From Cyanobium sp. Morenito 9A2 (GTDB lineage: Bacteria; Cyanobacteriota; Cyanobacteriia; PCC-6307; Cyanobiaceae): a stretch of 64,000 nucleotides of DNA. Position 1 is the stretch's first letter; each line of letters opens with the position of its first letter. Location of the stretch: the NCBI RefSeq assembly GCF_024345575.1, contig NZ_JAGQBJ010000001.1, forward strand, positions 372,001 through 436,000, read 5' to 3'. Shown here one piece after another: positions 39,798-45,984 of this stretch. The notes beneath the pieces are model-generated. The model had not been told where the DNA came from. It was given only the letters and a program-made list of their open reading frames with translations, and did not search any database. A program made the position numbers and the translations under genes.

Positions 39798-40556
39798 TCA
39801 GGCCCGGCCGGCATCTAACAGCCGCTCGATCTGATCAAGGGCTCCGTCGAGGGGATCGATGGCCGCCGTCAGGGCCGCGTCGCTGGCCTCCTCGGAGTTC
39901 CACTCGCGCTCGATCTGGCGCCGCAGCAGCTGCAGCCCCCCGTCGATGGCCTCCAGGCGGGTGGCCAGGGCCAGCAGCCGGGCCTCGCGCTCGTCCATCC
40001 CCTGGTGGGCGGCGCTGAGGTTGCGGCTGAGTTGATCCACGAGGCGCCGGCGTTCCTGGCGCAGGGGCCCGTCAGCGTCCCGCGTCAGGGCCTGTTGCTC
40101 GCTGCGCAGGCGCACGGAGAGGTCAACTGTGGAGAGCAGCACGCCGCCACCCGACTGGAGCAGCGGGCGGCGGCTCTCCAACCGCTGGGGCAGGGCCGCG
40201 AGCCGCTCGCAGCAGAGTTGCACGCGGCCCAGGCCCTCGAGCTGAACCGTCGCGGTGAAGCGCTCGATCGCCTGCAGCCGGAGGGTCTCCGCCTGGGCCG
40301 CCAGCTCGCTGGCCCGCAGCAGCGCCGCGTCGATGCCGGCCTCCACCCGGCGATCGTGCAGCCGCTGGTCCTGGCTGGGGCGGCGGCGCAGGGATCGGCC
40401 CAGGGCGGCCAGCAGCAGGGCGGCCCCCAGGCCGAGTAGTAACCCCGGCACCAGCGCGAGCAGGCCGAGCCTGACCACGGCCACCAGCAGCAGGCCGGCG
40501 GTGGCGACCGCCAGGGGTTCATCAAGGGGATTAACCCAGGCCGGGAGTCGTGCCAT
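39798..40556 (-). CDS. Membrane-anchored coiled-coil protein of the VWA cluster
   Basis: A 252-residue protein. One or two hydrophobic segments near the N-terminus (LAVATAGLLLVAVVRLGLLA and LVPGLLLGLGAALLLAALG) are followed by about 190 residues of charged, leucine-rich helix with heptad character (AGIDAALLRASELAAQAETL; EREARLLALATRLEAIDGGL). The design recalls the membrane-plus-helix proteins (XpaC-like) that accompany VWA/substrate-binding proteins in other bacteria, but I cannot assign a family. The ATG shares one base with the stop of the VWA gene (TGATG), so the two are translated together. Its likely role is a structural partner of that lipoprotein. Confidence 0.78.
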   Translation of the reverse strand: MARLPAWVNPLDEPLAVATAGLLLVAVVRLGLLALVPGLLLGLGAALLLAALGRSLRRRPSQDQRLHDRRVEAGIDAALLRASELAAQAETLRLQAIERFTATVQLEGLGRVQLCCERLAALPQRLESRRPLLQSGGGVLLSTVDLSVRLRSEQQALTRDADGPLRQERRRLVDQLSRNLSAAHQGMDEREARLLALATRLEAIDGGLQLLRRQIEREWNSEEASDAALTAAIDPLDGALDQIERLLDAGRA

Positions 40557-42244
40557 CAGAAGGCCAACTGCAGATCTTCCATCCGCTTGCGGATGCTTTC
40601 GGGCGTGCCGGTGGCAAATTCACCGCCGTTGCCCAGGGCGATGCGCTTGAGCACCTCGCCATCGAAATCGCCCTGGTTGCCATAGCCGATCGTGAACACG
40701 GCGATGCGCTCATCGGCGCCAAACCCGCTGCGCTTGAGGCTGCCGATCAGGCCGTCGAGAGGAAGGCTTGAGCCGTTGTCCTGACCGTCGGTGAGCACCA
40801 CCACCGCCAGGATCTCGCCCGGTTTTCGGCTATTCAGCAGCCAGTCGCGTCCCTGGTTCACGGCGTCGTAGAGGCGGGTTCCCCCCTCGGCCTGCAGGGA
40901 GCTCACGAACCGGCTGGCCGCCGCCCCGCCTGCGCCGGTGGCCGCGCCTCCGCGCACCACCACGGGCGGGCGCAGGGCGGCATCGAAATCAAACAGCCCG
41001 ACCGTGTCCCGGGGGCCGATCTGGCCCAGGTAGGCCTGCAGGCTGCGCTGGGCGGCCGCCAGCTTTTCTCCCTTCATCGAGCCGGAGCTGTCCACCACCA
41101 GGGCCACCCGCGACGGCTTCTTGGCCAGATCGCGCCACACCTGGATGATCGCCTCGACCACCTCCGGTTTCGGGGCCCGCAGGGAGTCGTAGACGGCGCC
41201 GGGATCGGCGCCCAGGGCGGGGGTGACGCGGCTGGCGGGCACGGCCGGATTGGCGGGCCTGAGGCCCTCGGCGGCCGCCAGCTGCTGGATCGCCGGCTGC
41301 TGGAGCCGTTCAATCAGCAGCAGGGCCGCCTGCTTTTCCTTCGCCGACACCCAGGGGGCATTGGGCAGGATCACGCGCATCGTGCTGGCGTAGGTGGCGC
41401 GGGGGTAGACGGCCTTCATCGCCTCCTGGTCGGGGCCGCGGCGGCTGTTCACCCCCACCACCGAGGACTCGTACACCGCCCCCACCGAGGCCCAGAACAC
41501 CCCGTTGCGCTGCATCGCCCGGGCGAGTTCATCGGTGGAGCTGCCGTAGCGGGTGACGTGACGCTCGATCGCCGCCAGCTGGTCGGCATGGGCACGCACA
41601 TCGGCAACCGTGAGCTGCTCGGGCCGCTTGCCGGCCACCTCCGCCACCATCGCCACCACCGTCTGCAGGCCGGAGTTGGAGCGGGTGGGGGCGGTGTGCA
41701 CGAAGCGGATCGGCTGGAACGGGCCACTGGGATCAAGCTGGTGGTGGTCGCCGCTGCGGGCCAGGGCTCCGTAGGGATCCTTGCGGTTCAGGCCCTTCGC
41801 CAGCTCCGGCGTGGTCATCAGCACCATGGGGCTGGAGGCCAGGGCGGGGGCGTCGGCGGGCAGGGGGATCAGCTCCCGGGTCGGGGCCAGCCGTTGCAGC
41901 CGGTGACGCAGCAGCTCCAGGTAGATCTCCCCGTCCACCGAGAGCAGGGTGGGAATCCGCGGATCCTCCGCTGCGCCGCCGCCCTGGAGCACGCCCCGAG
42001 CCTGGTCTTCAATCTGCTGCACCACATCGCCGCTGCCTGCGGAACGACAGCGCAGGAGCACGGGGGTGCGGTCCGGGAGCTGGGGTGGGTCCTTGGCGAT
42101 CGCCGCCGCCGCGCTCTGGCAGAAGCCCTTGAGGGCACTGCCCACGAGCATCTCCAACTCCAGGGGGGGAGGAGACCAGAAGGAGCAACCCGCCAGGCTC
42201 AGCAGCAGGGAGGCGCAGAGGGCCTGCGGCAGGGGCCGGGCCAT
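40556..42244 (-). CDS. Lipoprotein with substrate-binding and VWA domains
   Basis: About 562 residues. The start is the ATG at 42244: MARPLPQALCASLLLSLAGC is a lipoprotein signal with the lipobox LAGC, so the mature protein is anchored on the periplasmic side. Residues about 30-340 look like a periplasmic solute-binding fold (SGDVVQQIEDQARGVLQGGG; TRSNSGLQTVVAMVAEVAG; VYPRATYASTMRVILPNAPW). Residues about 365-560 form a von Willebrand A domain with a complete MIDAS start VALVVDSSGSMKGEKL, then TVGLFDFDA and VVVLTDGQDNGSSLPLD. Solute-binding/VWA fusions are known as a protein architecture; the ligand is unknown. It is divergent from a second solute-binding gene and coupled to a coiled-coil membrane protein. 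Confidence 0.9.
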   Translation of the reverse strand: MARPLPQALCASLLLSLAGCSFWSPPPLELEMLVGSALKGFCQSAAAAIAKDPPQLPDRTPVLLRCRSAGSGDVVQQIEDQARGVLQGGGAAEDPRIPTLLSVDGEIYLELLRHRLQRLAPTRELIPLPADAPALASSPMVLMTTPELAKGLNRKDPYGALARSGDHHQLDPSGPFQPIRFVHTAPTRSNSGLQTVVAMVAEVAGKRPEQLTVADVRAHADQLAAIERHVTRYGSSTDELARAMQRNGVFWASVGAVYESSVVGVNSRRGPDQEAMKAVYPRATYASTMRVILPNAPWVSAKEKQAALLLIERLQQPAIQQLAAAEGLRPANPAVPASRVTPALGADPGAVYDSLRAPKPEVVEAIIQVWRDLAKKPSRVALVVDSSGSMKGEKLAAAQRSLQAYLGQIGPRDTVGLFDFDAALRPPVVVRGGAATGAGGAAASRFVSSLQAEGGTRLYDAVNQGRDWLLNSRKPGEILAVVVLTDGQDNGSSLPLDGLIGSLKRSGFGADERIAVFTIGYGNQGDFDGEVLKRIALGNGGEFATGTPESIRKRMEDLQLAF

Positions 42245-42351
42245 GGAGGTTGCCCATCGACAGGCCCATTGTGGGGCGATTCGCGCTCCAGCGGTCAGAC
42301 TGGGCCCACCTTGTGACCGTGGCTGTGCAGGCGACCCTCCGGCGCAGGCGC

Positions 42352-43341
42352 ATGATCTCGCTGTCGATCGCCGCCGTGGCCGTGGTACTGGCGGCCGCAC
42401 CCCTGCCGGGACTGCGGCGCCCCCTGCTGGTGGCGATCGGCTCCGAGCTCGCTCCGGCCATGGAGGCGCTGGAGCCCGCCTTCGAGCGCCAGCACCCGGA
42501 CATCGACCTGCAATGGGAGGTGCAGGGCTCCCAGGAGATGGTGAACCGCTGGCTCGATGGCGGGGCGGAGCGGGCCAGGGTGCTGATCCCCGCCAGCCGC
42601 GATCACCTCACGGCGTTGGCCGAGGCGGCGCAGGCCCGAGGGGAAGCCAGCCCGTTTGCAGAGGTTCCTCAAACCGTGGCCCGCACCCTGCTGGTGGCCG
42701 TGGTCTGGCCCCAGCGCGCCCAGCGCCTGTTCCCCGCTGGCCGCTTCAGCTGGAGCCGCCTGCGCCAGGCGGCCGCCGCCGGCCAGTGGAGGGCCCTCGG
42801 CGCACCGGAGGCCTGGGGCAGTTTCGACCTGCGCGCCACGGACCCACTGCGCTCCAATTCCGGCCAACTGACCCTGGCGCTCTGGTGCCAGGGCGAAGCC
42901 AGGCCCGGTTGCGTCGAGAGCCTGCGGCGGGCCCTCTACCGGCCCGCCCGCTCCACCGACATCCTGCTGAAGGAGTTCATCAGCGGCGGACCCAACGAGG
43001 GGGATCTGGCGATGGTCTACGAAGCCTCAGCCCTGGCCCGGCAGCCGGAGGCGGCCCGAGCGCGCCCCGGTGGCTACCAAATTCTGGTGCCCGATCCCAC
43101 CGTGGAAACGGTGCTCGCGGCGGCGGTGCTGCGCGGAGTCGGGCAGGGGCGCGAGGGCGACGGGGAGCGGTTTGTGGGCTACCTGGGTGGAGCCGACGGC
43201 CAGGCCTTGCTGGCCTCCCATGGCTTCCGCCGGGCGAATGGCAGGGGCGTCAGCCCCCGGGGGGACGGGGTGCGGCGGCTGTCCCCACCGACGCCGGCCC
43301 AGCGCGATGAGCTGCTGCGGCAGTGGCAGCAGGCCAGCTGA
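42352..43341 (+). CDS. Extracellular solute-binding protein (ModA/Sbp-like)
   Basis: About 329 residues from the ATG at 42352; the frame is open 34 codons upstream but those residues are basic and unstructured. The N-terminus MISLSIAAVAVVLAAA is a signal peptide. The mature part opens PLLVAIGSELAPAMEALEPA and FERQHPDIDLQWEVQGSQEM, then LIPASRDHLTALAEAAQ and ATDPLRSNSGQLTLALW: the family II binding-protein plan with a small-anion-type ligand pocket. There is no permease or ATPase next to it with matching topology; the nearest ABC genes are FetAB-like exporters. It is divergent from the VWA lipoprotein (107-base gap), with which it may share a ligand and promoter region. Confidence 0.85.
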   Translation: MISLSIAAVAVVLAAAPLPGLRRPLLVAIGSELAPAMEALEPAFERQHPDIDLQWEVQGSQEMVNRWLDGGAERARVLIPASRDHLTALAEAAQARGEASPFAEVPQTVARTLLVAVVWPQRAQRLFPAGRFSWSRLRQAAAAGQWRALGAPEAWGSFDLRATDPLRSNSGQLTLALWCQGEARPGCVESLRRALYRPARSTDILLKEFISGGPNEGDLAMVYEASALARQPEAARARPGGYQILVPDPTVETVLAAAVLRGVGQGREGDGERFVGYLGGADGQALLASHGFRRANGRGVSPRGDGVRRLSPPTPAQRDELLRQWQQAS

Positions 43342-43353
43342 GGCCAGGGTCGA

Positions 43354-43740
43354 TCAGCGCACCAGCAGCAGCAGCCGGTTGCCCTCGGGATCCTGCAGCC
43401 AGGCCTCGGCGCCGAAGGATTCCCGGCGCGGCGGCTCCTGAGCGCGGGCGCCATGGGCGAGCGCGACCTCGATCCAGGCCGCCAGCACCGCCAGGGGGTC
43501 GTTGGACCCCCCAGCGCTCTGGAGGCAGAGGGCGAGGCGGCCCGCTTGCCGCGGCACGGGTCGTGTGCGCGAGGGGGCGTAGACCTCCAGCCAGCCGCCG
43601 CTCGGCCAGGGCAGGCGCCAGTGGCCAGACCCCCAGCCCGGTTGCGCCTCCACTTGCAGCAGGGCGCCATAGAAACCCGCCAGGGCGGCGGGATCATCGG
43701 CGGCCAGCACCAGGGAGGCGTCCGGGGCTCCTGGATTCAT
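43354..43740 (-). CDS. VOC (glyoxalase/bleomycin-resistance) superfamily protein
   Basis: A 128-residue single-domain protein from the ATG at 43740. It shows the VOC beta-alpha-beta-beta-beta repeat: SLVLAADDPAALAGFYGALL, then WRLPWPSGGWLEVYAP, GRLALCLQSAGGSNDPL and a closing EAWLQDPEGNRLLLLV, where the glutamates of EVYAP and DPEGN are the usual metal positions. One histidine-type ligand is not obvious. It faces the solute-binding gene (12-base gap) and is divergent from the ABC genes. Substrate unknown. Confidence 0.82.
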   Translation of the reverse strand: MNPGAPDASLVLAADDPAALAGFYGALLQVEAQPGWGSGHWRLPWPSGGWLEVYAPSRTRPVPRQAGRLALCLQSAGGSNDPLAVLAAWIEVALAHGARAQEPPRRESFGAEAWLQDPEGNRLLLLVR

Positions 43741-43828
43741 CAAGGCGGGGCGGGCCCCCCAGGATGGCGGCCAACCCTCGGGTGGGTCCGATCGACCCGG
43801 GGTCCGATCGACGTCGGGGTCGAGCAGA

Positions 43829-44503
43829 GTGGCCCTGCCCCACTGCCGCGCCTTGGACCGCCCCCTGCTTCTGCGCGCCGAGGGGCTCAAACGCCAGCTC
43901 GGCGATCGCCTGCTCTGGGGCGGCCTCGATCTGGAACTGGCCGCTGGGGAACGGCTGGGGCTGGTGGCGCCTTCGGGGGCGGGAAAAACCCTGCTGCTGC
44001 GCGCCCTGGCCCTGCTCGATCCCCTGCAGGCGGGTTCGATCCGTCTGCAGGGCCGGCCACCGTCGGCCTGGGGTCTGCCCTGCTGGCGCTCGATGGTGTC
44101 CTATCTCGCCCAGCGGCCCGTCGCCCAGGGGGGCACGGTGGAGACGAACCTGCGCGCCCCCTGGGCCTTCCGGGAGCTGCGGGGGCGGGGGGGCTGGAGC
44201 CGGGGGCGGATCACGGTCTGGTTGGAGGCCCTGGGGCGCGATCCTTCCTTTTTGACCTACGACGCCGAGCGGCTCTCCGGCGGTGAGCTGCAGCTCCTGG
44301 CGCTGCTGCGGGCCCTGCAGTTCGATCCCACCGTGCTGCTGCTGGATGAACCCACCGCCTCCCTCGATGGATCGACGACGACGGCGCTGGAGGCGTTGCT
44401 GATCGCATGGCTCGGCGGGGGGGGCCGTGCTGCGGTCTTCACCAGCCACGACAGCGGGCAGATCGAGCGCTTCGCGAGCCGCAGCCTGGAGCTCGTGCCA
44501 TGA
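43829..44503 (+). CDS. fetA: ABC transporter ATPase (FetA-like)
   Basis: A 224-residue ATP-binding subunit. Walker A is APSGAGKTLLLRAL, the Q-loop region is SYLAQRPVAQ, the ABC signature is RLSGGELQLLALLRAL and Walker B is VLLLDEPTASLDG; the H-loop histidine is in FTSHDSGQ. All catalytic residues are present. The start is a GTG at 43829. Its stop overlaps the permease start by four bases (ATGA), a tight two-gene operon. The partner permease is of the FetB/UPF0014 type, so iron (or related metal) export is the family-based guess. Confidence 0.9.
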   Translation: MALPHCRALDRPLLLRAEGLKRQLGDRLLWGGLDLELAAGERLGLVAPSGAGKTLLLRALALLDPLQAGSIRLQGRPPSAWGLPCWRSMVSYLAQRPVAQGGTVETNLRAPWAFRELRGRGGWSRGRITVWLEALGRDPSFLTYDAERLSGGELQLLALLRALQFDPTVLLLDEPTASLDGSTTTALEALLIAWLGGGGRAAVFTSHDSGQIERFASRSLELVP

Positions 44504-45387
44504 CCCCCGCCCCTGCCGGCGCTCTGGCGATCAGCGATGGCCAGTTGGCGCTCTCCGCCCTGCTGATCCTGGTGAACGTGGGCCTCTCGGTCGTGCTGCG
44601 GCTGGGCCTGGGGCGCAGCCTGGTGGTGGCTTCCCTGCGCATGGTGGTGCAACTGCTGCTGGTGGGTTCCGTGCTCGAGTGGCTGTTCCGCCAGGACGAT
44701 GCACTCCTGATTGTGCTCGTGGCGGTCGCCATGGCCCTGATCGCGGCGGTGTCGGCGGTCCAGCGCACCCGGCGCCGCTTTGCAGGCATCTACCTCAACA
44801 GCCTCCTGACGGTGCTGGCCTCGGCGGCCCTGGTGACGGGCCTGGCGGTGGTCGGGCTGATCAGGCCCCAGCCCTGGTACGACCCCCAGTACCTGATCCC
44901 CCTGCTGGGAATGGTGCTGGGCAACACGCTCAACGGCCTCACCCTGGGGCTCGATCGCTTCATGGAGGGCTTGCGCAGCGGACGCGATCGGGTGGAGACG
45001 GCCCTGGCCCTGGGGGGGACCCGCTGGGAGGCCTGTCAGGAGGTGGTGCGCGACGCCATCCGCGTGGCGATGATCCCGACGATCAATTCGATGATGGTGA
45101 TGGGGCTGGTGAGCCTGCCGGGGATGATGACTGGCCAGATCCTTCAGGGGGCGGCACCGGAAGCCGCCGTTCGTTACCAGATCGTGATTCTGTTCATGAT
45201 CGCTTCGGCGACGGCGCTGGGGGTGTTCGGTGTCGTGGGCCTGGCCTATGGGCGTCTCACCAGTGCCGACCACCAGCTGCGGCTCGATCGCCTGGTCACC
45301 GTGGGCGAGCGGGGCATTGGAGGTGCCGGTGGCTCCTTCCGGCGTTGGTGGGGTGCCGGACGTGGGGGAACTTCAACGCTGGGCTGA
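44500..45387 (+). CDS. fetB: ABC transporter permease (FetB/UPF0014-like)
   Basis: A 295-residue membrane protein from the ATG at 44500, overlapping the ATPase stop. About six to seven membrane segments: ALSALLILVNVGLSVVLRLG, VVASLRMVVQLLLVGSVLEW, LLIVLVAVAMALIAAVSAVQ and so on. The family marks are the block NSLLTVLASAALVTGLAVVG, the loop RVETALALGGTRWEACQEV (coupling helix) and MVMGLVSLPGMMTGQILQGA. FetAB in E. coli exports iron and protects against peroxide; cyanobacterial relatives are rarely tested. The last 25 residues (GERGIGGAGGSFRRWWGAGR) are low in texture and the true stop is as read. Confidence 0.92.
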   Translation: MTPAPAGALAISDGQLALSALLILVNVGLSVVLRLGLGRSLVVASLRMVVQLLLVGSVLEWLFRQDDALLIVLVAVAMALIAAVSAVQRTRRRFAGIYLNSLLTVLASAALVTGLAVVGLIRPQPWYDPQYLIPLLGMVLGNTLNGLTLGLDRFMEGLRSGRDRVETALALGGTRWEACQEVVRDAIRVAMIPTINSMMVMGLVSLPGMMTGQILQGAAPEAAVRYQIVILFMIASATALGVFGVVGLAYGRLTSADHQLRLDRLVTVGERGIGGAGGSFRRWWGAGRGGTSTLG

Positions 45388-45501: not shown

Positions 45502-45984
45502 GTGCGCCAGGCTGAGGGACGCGTTGGAGAGCCTTCCGTGCTGGCGGCCCTGCTGATCCTGGTGGTGATGGGGGCGGTCGTGGCGGCGCTCAACCCCGGC
45601 AGGGTTGAATTCCAGTGGTTTCTTGCCCTCCGGCGACCGCGTTGGCTGACCTTCGAGCGTTGGATTCCCCTGATCTGGATCGGCATCTACGCCTGCTTCT
45701 ATGCCTCGGCCTTGCTGAGCTGGAACGCCAGTGGCAGCTGGCCCCTGATGGCGGGCTTCCTGCTCTTGGTCCTGCTGGTGCAGAGCTACACCCTGGTGAT
45801 CGTGCGCACCCGCCGCCTCCGCAACGGAACGCTGCTGGGTGCGGCTGGCTGGGGGTGGGGCGTGGCGCTCAGCCTTGCTGTGGCCCCGGTCAGCCGTGGG
45901 GGCCTGGTCCTGCTGATTCCCTATCTGCTCTGGAGCCCGATCGGCACCTTCGTGACCTGGCGCATGCAACGACTCAATCGATGA
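45502..45984 (+). CDS. TspO/MBR-like membrane protein
   Basis: A 160-residue, five-segment membrane protein. The block NPGRVEFQWFLALRRPRW and PLIWIGIYACFYASALLSW, then WPLMAGFLLLVLLVQSYTLV, keeps the aromatic, proline-flanked pattern of TspO/MBR. The family binds tetrapyrroles and affects pigment or stress responses in photosynthetic bacteria. Start is a GTG at 45502; a GTG at 45538 is also possible. It is 114 bases after fetB on the same strand; the link is not clear. The call is by pattern and moderately sure. Confidence 0.75.
   Translation: MRQAEGRVGEPSVLAALLILVVMGAVVAALNPGRVEFQWFLALRRPRWLTFERWIPLIWIGIYACFYASALLSWNASGSWPLMAGFLLLVLLVQSYTLVIVRTRRLRNGTLLGAAGWGWGVALSLAVAPVSRGGLVLLIPYLLWSPIGTFVTWRMQRLNR

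Follow-up and report, generated by a model that had tools for sequence, protein, structure and literature searches.

We analysed a 64,000-nucleotide stretch of the Cyanobium sp. Morenito 9A2 genome (contig NZ_JAGQBJ010000001.1, positions 372,001 to 436,000 of the forward strand), here called the window, and find that three genes at 39798–43341 look like the parts of one envelope system. They encode a predicted lipoprotein that joins a solute-binding protein (SBP) fold to a VWA domain, a membrane protein with a coiled-coil-like region (CC), and a second SBP that is transcribed divergently; the lipoprotein gene is called VWA below. All three had been placed in this interval by an earlier reading of the letters alone (the sequence-only reading), and translations and Pfam matches recover each of them there. 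The host genome is 3.1 Mb in size, and the named homologues closest to the window come from Cyanobium, Synechococcus and their relatives. On the evidence of sequence, the trio has a defined architecture, joint inheritance, a conserved order, a naturally occurring CC-SBP fusion and no conserved adjacent ATP-binding cassette (ABC) ATPase. The explanation that we favour, and to which we give roughly equal chances of being right or wrong, is that the trio is a ligand-sensing, VWA-scaffolded module for envelope stress or homeostasis, similar to the TelA/XpaC and phage-shock-protein (PSP) loci, with CC as its cytoplasmic output. Envelope sensing or homeostasis is the best reading because the TelA/XpaC and PspA context of related loci is tied to envelope stress.

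The SBP-VWA lipoprotein (P0001, 562 residues, 40556–42244, minus strand) was characterised by translation, Pfam, a 21-row alignment that includes the window sequence (A1) and an AlphaFold2 model with a mean predicted local distance difference test (pLDDT) score of 89.5. It matches SBP_bac_11 (9e-8, residues 33–329), VWA_2 (2e-10, residues 380–488) and VWA (9e-10, residues 380–543). A type II periplasmic-binding-protein fold spans residues 28–372 (41129–42163, minus strand; PF13531 and structural matches) and is followed by a VWA domain at residues 376–562 (40559–41119, minus strand; PF13519/PF00092), for which the VWA domain of structure 4fx5 matches model residues 376–561 with Z 22.0. The lipobox cysteine (LAGC; Cys20, codon at 42185–42187, minus strand) is invariant in all 21 rows of A1, and by this lipobox the protein is a predicted bacterial lipoprotein. 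Equally invariant (21/21 rows) are D385, S387, S389, T456 and D486, which belong to the metal-ion-dependent adhesion site (MIDAS) with its DSSGS core at residues 385–389 (41078–41092, minus strand); the DxSxS...T...D pattern predicts a complete metal site, in agreement with the solute-binding and VWA lipoprotein with an intact DSSGSM site described by the sequence-only reading. The top structures for the binding fold of the model are both sulfate-binding proteins (5um2, Z 26.7; 1sbp, Z 25.8; 14–17% identity), and the thiamin-binding 2qry reaches Z 25.4. Scores for thiamin-, sugar-phosphate-, polyamine- and iron-binding proteins are close behind (Z about 23–25 against 26–27), so these matches do not narrow the ligand class. 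The two SBP-type proteins of the trio are paralogues (profile E 9e-15), and an SNSG-type motif is conserved in the alignments of both.

The CC protein (P0002, 252 residues, 39798–40556, minus strand) consists of a hydrophobic N-terminus and a helical coiled-coil-like region, as judged from translation, hydropathy and alignment. Its N-terminal hydrophobic stretch (approximately residues 10–56, 40389–40529, minus strand) shows two overlapping hydropathy peaks, and we read it as a putative helical hairpin from the hydropathy, from conserved NP...P..V positions and from the two helices seen in the model of a fused relative. CC has no Pfam or NCBIfam family above the curated cut-off, and its best match by sequence among solved structures (E 0.31) provides no lead. 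The candidates TelA, PspA and XpaC were rejected, none of the CC proteins scanned having such a Pfam match; for XpaC, PF10112 is unmatched in four CC proteins, namely P0002 and that of L025 (E up to 1) and those of L027 and L031 (E up to 5). A known anti-phage defence system was likewise rejected, as P0001–P0003 match no PADLOC defence model at E up to 0.01. The base said to be shared by the lipoprotein stop and the CC start codon is indeed present in a TGATG at 40554–40558 (minus strand), an overlap that is kept in 14 of 17 related loci (L038, L046 and L024 differ). At approximately position 9659 of L038, TCATG replaces TGATG and the VWA frame continues into the CC gene.

The divergent SBP (P0003, 42325–43341, plus strand) matches SBP_bac_11 (PF13531, 1.5e-18) and carries a hydrophobic N-terminal helix which is probably a membrane anchor and looks uncleaved. 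Its start is probably GTG 42325, 42319 or 42313, with ATG 42352 internal, because related sequences conserve the residues 5' of that ATG. With an upstream start the gap to the VWA gene would be about 68–80 bases, and the intergenic region is given here as 42245–42324. The divergent arrangement described by the sequence-only reading is thus borne out, while its spacing of 107 bases, which fits ATG 42352, is probably too long.

The three genes were next considered across a cyanobacterial sample of 386 genomes, one set searched with three alignments (VWA, CC and SBP). CC is found at E < 1e-50 in 28 genomes and VWA and SBP in 30 each; every one of the 28 CC genomes also holds both VWA and SBP. Outside these 28, VWA occurs by itself in G394, a VWA fragment with a stop accompanies an SBP fragment in G340, and G354 retains an SBP remnant with many stops. 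A CC match was present in 33 genomes, from which five were dropped (G189, G304, G323 and G382, short with stops; G188, a weak partial match), and G273, in which the frames of VWA and SBP are split, was counted as a carrier. The decayed or split remnants in G340, G354, G273, G189 and G304 are a possible sign of repeated loss. Fisher's test for co-occurrence of CC and VWA returns p 1e-40, a value that ignores kinship; more telling is the span of the carriers over 11 family labels. In a same-genus comparison dN/dS (the ratio of nonsynonymous to synonymous substitution rates) is approximately 0.11 for VWA, 0.11 for CC and 0.17 for SBP, and these values together with the co-occurrence of all three indicate that the observation is more than chance.

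Gene order is conserved as well, a point on which the sequence-only reading had asked for a check: the trio is clustered in 26 of the 28 carriers, 22 as a same-strand run of VWA, CC and SBP (in one of these, G402, an opposite-strand open reading frame (ORF) sits between VWA and CC) and four with SBP divergent as in the window. Gaps between the genes were measured between profile matches and not between gene ends. The two remaining carriers both belong to genus g51 and retain all three genes hundreds of kilobases apart. In G048, CC and SBP form one protein of 602 residues, in which hydropathy and charges mark out two helices, the coiled coil, the sequence KQERR, a third hydrophobic helix and then the SBP. 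This layout suggests that the coiled coil lies inside and the SBP outside, from which a cytoplasmic coiled coil and a periplasmic SBP may be proposed for the trio in general. The coiled-coil part of the fused protein is modelled with pLDDT of approximately 42–70 by blocks, and the 50 best matches listed in a structural search with it are all binding proteins. The G048 genome looks like Gloeobacter, and the occurrence of the fused form there suggests that the module is old in cyanobacteria. A second fusion, in G415, places SBP behind an M48 peptidase (PF01435 5e-33; L076:6737-8710). The co-occurrence, the two fusions and the two genomes that keep a dispersed trio all speak for the three genes being one system, as the sequence-only reading had proposed.

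The presence of two binding folds raises the alternative that both SBPs work for an ABC importer whose genes lie elsewhere in the genome, with VWA and CC as accessory docking factors. Both proteins do have the fold of ABC-importer SBPs by PF13531 and by structure matches, the nearest structures being importer-type binding proteins, and the SNSG-type motif is conserved. However, in a motif scan of flanks of up to 6 kb, some being shorter, only 4 of 38 loci (the window, L043, L045 and L079) have an ABC ATPase-like ORF, and no linked cognate permease and ATPase pair was recognised by this ATPase scan, in which permeases were not scanned as such. Two of the four loci come from a pair of close relatives within Cyanobium; as L023 and L039 represent one region, at most 37 loci are independent. 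The motif pattern admits a Walker A beginning with A, as in the ATPase of the window. A matching permease and ATPase always found nearby would have spoken against a transporter-free module, and ATPases of this kind are the exception. The window ATPase itself belongs to a FetAB-type pair (PF00005 2.8e-23; UPF0014 3.7e-86), the different type of neighbour that had been recognised from sequence. Fusions of SBP to CC or to an M48 peptidase and an N-terminal anchor are unusual among importer SBPs, and the first two occur and the third is likely here. Because ABC ATPase-like ORFs are near so few loci, and from the neighbour clustering, we set the importer aside as decidedly unlikely.

Relatives of the module in other phyla provide the functional context. 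Both SBP-type proteins occur there too, usually accompanied by a small membrane protein as third member and often next to TelA or to PspA plus an AAA+ protein. Proteins of the SBP-VWA type occur in 9 of 149 actinobacterial genomes, including a genome of the Ilumatobacteraceae, and actinobacterial profiles link to the cyanobacterial ones with E 3.6e-45 for VWA and 1.4e-10 for SBP. The Ilumatobacteraceae genome holds together genes for an AAA+ protein, an SBP-slot protein with an anchor (without a Pfam match, and sharing 25% identity with that of L066), SBP-VWA, a membrane coiled-coil protein and PspA. Before PspA in this locus lies a MurJ-like gene, judged from its translation and not profile-scanned. 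The same five kinds of gene stand together in 4 of 10 actinobacterial loci by clustering, with Pfam run on one, and extra ORFs lie between members of the set in L067 and L068; these 10 loci cover all but two (in G558) of the 13 places with an SBP-VWA gene. The AAA+ neighbour in L050 belongs to PF00004, and its matches to the PADLOC models IetA (3e-9) and TRIP13 (2e-8) are probably those of a generic AAA+ protein. In L066, 5' of the module and on the opposite strand, there are ORFs that by eye resemble a MoxR-type AAA+ protein and a CoxE-like VWA protein.

There is precedent for VWA domains that assemble complexes together with AAA+ partners (MoxR-VWA, chelatases), and the M48 peptidase family includes membrane quality-control proteases. 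Such precedents, the AAA+ gene found adjacent in 4 of the 10 actinobacterial loci (PF00004 in L050) and the M48 peptidase fused to SBP in G415 would suit an assembly or quality-control factor, whose MIDAS VWA domain would help metal insertion or folding of an envelope protein while the SBPs recognise client segments. This is set against the lack of any conserved AAA+ partner or client gene recognised beside the cyanobacterial module, where neighbours were not profile-scanned; among the eight window neighbours that were scanned there is no AAA+ partner, the other cyanobacterial neighbours having been listed without a profile scan. We regard an assembly factor as rather unlikely.

TelA provides a further recurrent neighbour. 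Plasmid records of Sphaerotilus, Variovorax and Nonomuraea each combine TelA and SBP-VWA with an SBP-slot protein and a small membrane protein. PF05816 identifies TelA in Sphaerotilus (5e-88) and Nonomuraea (5e-86), and annotation names it in Variovorax; the SBP-slot protein was assigned by a moderate profile match in Sphaerotilus and by translation and position in the other two, and the small membrane proteins by hydropathy and mutual alignment. Deinococcus has the SBP-slot protein, SBP-VWA and small membrane protein with no TelA within the stretch read, and Thiodictyon has SBP-VWA, an SBP and a helical protein in which no membrane helix is predicted. The third-slot proteins of four TelA-type or Deinococcus loci are homologous to one another (33, 27 and 38% identity). 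The 149 actinobacterial genomes contain seven TelA genes in six genomes, of which four have an SBP-VWA gene no more than about 2 kb away. An SBP-slot homologue is present in all five actinobacterial loci read from the TelA search, and four of these loci also encode a small protein that has a hydrophobic stretch at its N-terminus. One of these four TelA-linked third-slot proteins resembles XpaC over nearly the whole PF10112 model (1.2e-4, below the curated cut-off). On the Variovorax plasmid, a gene annotated as Wadjet JetA (L090:9493-10908) lies downstream of the TelA-type module, at a distance of approximately 2.4 kb.

These TelA neighbours also bear on a third alternative, defence against a toxic oxyanion (tellurite, arsenate or similar), in which the SBPs would capture the anion and the remainder sequester it or signal. 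The two best structural matches being sulfate-binding proteins is in keeping with this, and PMC13109727 connects a tel locus of Lactococcus with tolerance of tellurite. Against it stand the near-equal scores of the other binding proteins and the lack of TelA above cut-off in the 52 cyanobacterial genomes tested, and a TelA-type mutant of Listeria is cited in PMC12791056 as more susceptible to nisin as well as to tellurite. We consider oxyanion defence very unlikely.

The sensing reading would describe a three-protein module of the inner membrane and periplasm with no dedicated transporter. The two paralogous folds for ligand binding would face the periplasm, one held by an N-terminal helix and the other being the lipoprotein that also bears the MIDAS-type VWA domain, while CC would have its hydrophobic hairpin in the membrane and its coiled coil in the cytoplasm. 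Ligand binding would close one of these folds or both, and in its closed state the fold would contact the VWA domain in a metal-dependent manner; the complex would then move or cluster CC so that it acts at the cytoplasmic face of the membrane. The cyanobacterial set may be a TelA-less form with a longer coiled-coil protein as output or scaffold. The sequence-only reading had suggested envelope sensing or assembly rather than import. By analogy with the TelA, XpaC-like, PspA and AAA+ neighbours in other phyla, an envelope role may be proposed; sensing and stress are the better fit, and assembly fits less. In a broader form of this reading, which we advance tentatively and think somewhat more apt to fail than to hold, the module would be a hitherto undescribed trans-phylum envelope sensor in which a pair of binding folds, one with VWA, senses a ligand outside the membrane and acts through a small membrane protein on exchangeable cytoplasmic effectors (TelA; PspA and AAA+; the cyanobacterial coiled coil).

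Several observations weigh against the sensing reading. Within cyanobacteria, TelA (PF05816) is above cut-off in none of the 52 genomes (30 carriers and 22 non-carriers; the non-carrier G054 has one sub-threshold match with a stop), and PspA occurs in 29 of 30 carriers and 21 of 22 non-carriers and lies about 70 kb or more from the trio on any shared contig, by listed positions; neither was retained as a genome-wide partner. Across phyla, CC and the third-slot proteins agree only in position and general make-up: the cyanobacterial CC aligns to them with hhalign probability 7 (actinobacterial) and 1.5 (TelA-linked), and with probabilities of 7, 8, 1.5 and 2.6 overall we do not claim homology in the third slot. 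The profile links of the SBP slot are only moderate (hhalign probability 89 for Sphaerotilus, 88 for Thiodictyon and 73 for Deinococcus), and no second SBP was recognised beside SBP-VWA in 6 of the 10 actinobacterial loci, in Miltoncostaea, where the companion is a membrane coiled-coil protein, or in one Streptomyces, where it is a 271-residue protein of unclear kind. Three of the seven actinobacterial TelA genes are not near an SBP-VWA gene.

If the trans-phylum sensor is real, TelA would form the output side of a sensor for extracytoplasmic ligands, and should the SBP pair act as the sensory half of the TelA system, purified domains would offer a direct way to look for the ligand. As the cyanobacterial form is small and without TelA in the tested genomes, it would allow sensing and the membrane step to be studied separately. 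The module also counsels caution in annotating such SBPs as parts of importers.

In the window, a glyoxalase-like gene (PF18029 1e-8; 43354–43890, minus strand) lies beyond SBP, the FetAB-like pair of a PF00005 ATPase and a UPF0014/FetB-type membrane protein occupies 43829–45387, and a TspO/MBR family gene (PF03073 1e-17) follows it at 45502–45984. Clustering of neighbours finds no non-trio cluster common to more than three compared loci outside the close Cyanobium group.

Among known systems, the TelA/XpaC loci are represented in PMC12791056 by yaaN and xpaC of B. subtilis and by lmo1967-lmo1966 of Listeria, where the XpaC- and TelA-type genes are slightly up under bacteriocin exposure; TelA-type proteins are tied there to tolerance of tellurite and cell-wall-acting peptides by a mechanism described as unknown. 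Proposals in two further papers are that TelA forms sub-membrane structures (PMC7824862) and that PspA/Snf7 and AAA+ proteins remodel membranes (PMC11237479); the word vWA is absent from the main text of the latter. The module resembles TelA/XpaC loci in that TelA in other phyla accompanies relatives of the SBP and of SBP-VWA together with a small membrane protein, which in one case is weakly XpaC-like, and is unlike them in that TelA is not above cut-off in the 52 tested cyanobacteria and the scanned cyanobacterial CC proteins neither match PF10112 nor align to the TelA-linked proteins. It resembles PSP systems in the PspA and AAA+ genes that adjoin it in 4 of 10 actinobacterial loci, yet in cyanobacteria it has no adjacent PspA and PspA presence does not track it. 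It is thus similar to both kinds of envelope-stress locus and in cyanobacteria stands outside both. With the SBPs of ABC importers (PF13531 and relatives) it shares the fold, the SNSG-type motif and the predicted periplasmic side, and it differs from them in having no conserved nearby ABC ATPase, in its fusions to VWA, CC or M48 and in its likely N-terminal anchor.

No paper describing the three-gene set was found by title or abstract in a search that was thin on subscription journals, nor was the phrase 'substrate-binding and VWA' found in the literature searched; such neighbours may be mentioned in a 2012 comparative study of Ter/TelA systems. The SBP-VWA protein itself is already known, since NCBI annotations carry the product name 'substrate-binding and VWA domain-containing protein' for the same domain architecture, while the linked genes are mostly annotated as hypothetical and, besides TelA, are so labelled in Sphaerotilus, Variovorax and Deinococcus. 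One title among the structural matches, 6lkg, is presumably HptA of HptRSA, an SBP that acts as a sensor without a transporter. The module is unlike HptA in having a VWA domain and in that neighbour clustering shows no histidine kinase or response regulator conserved nearby, and it is like HptA in that an SBP fold would serve sensing and not import.

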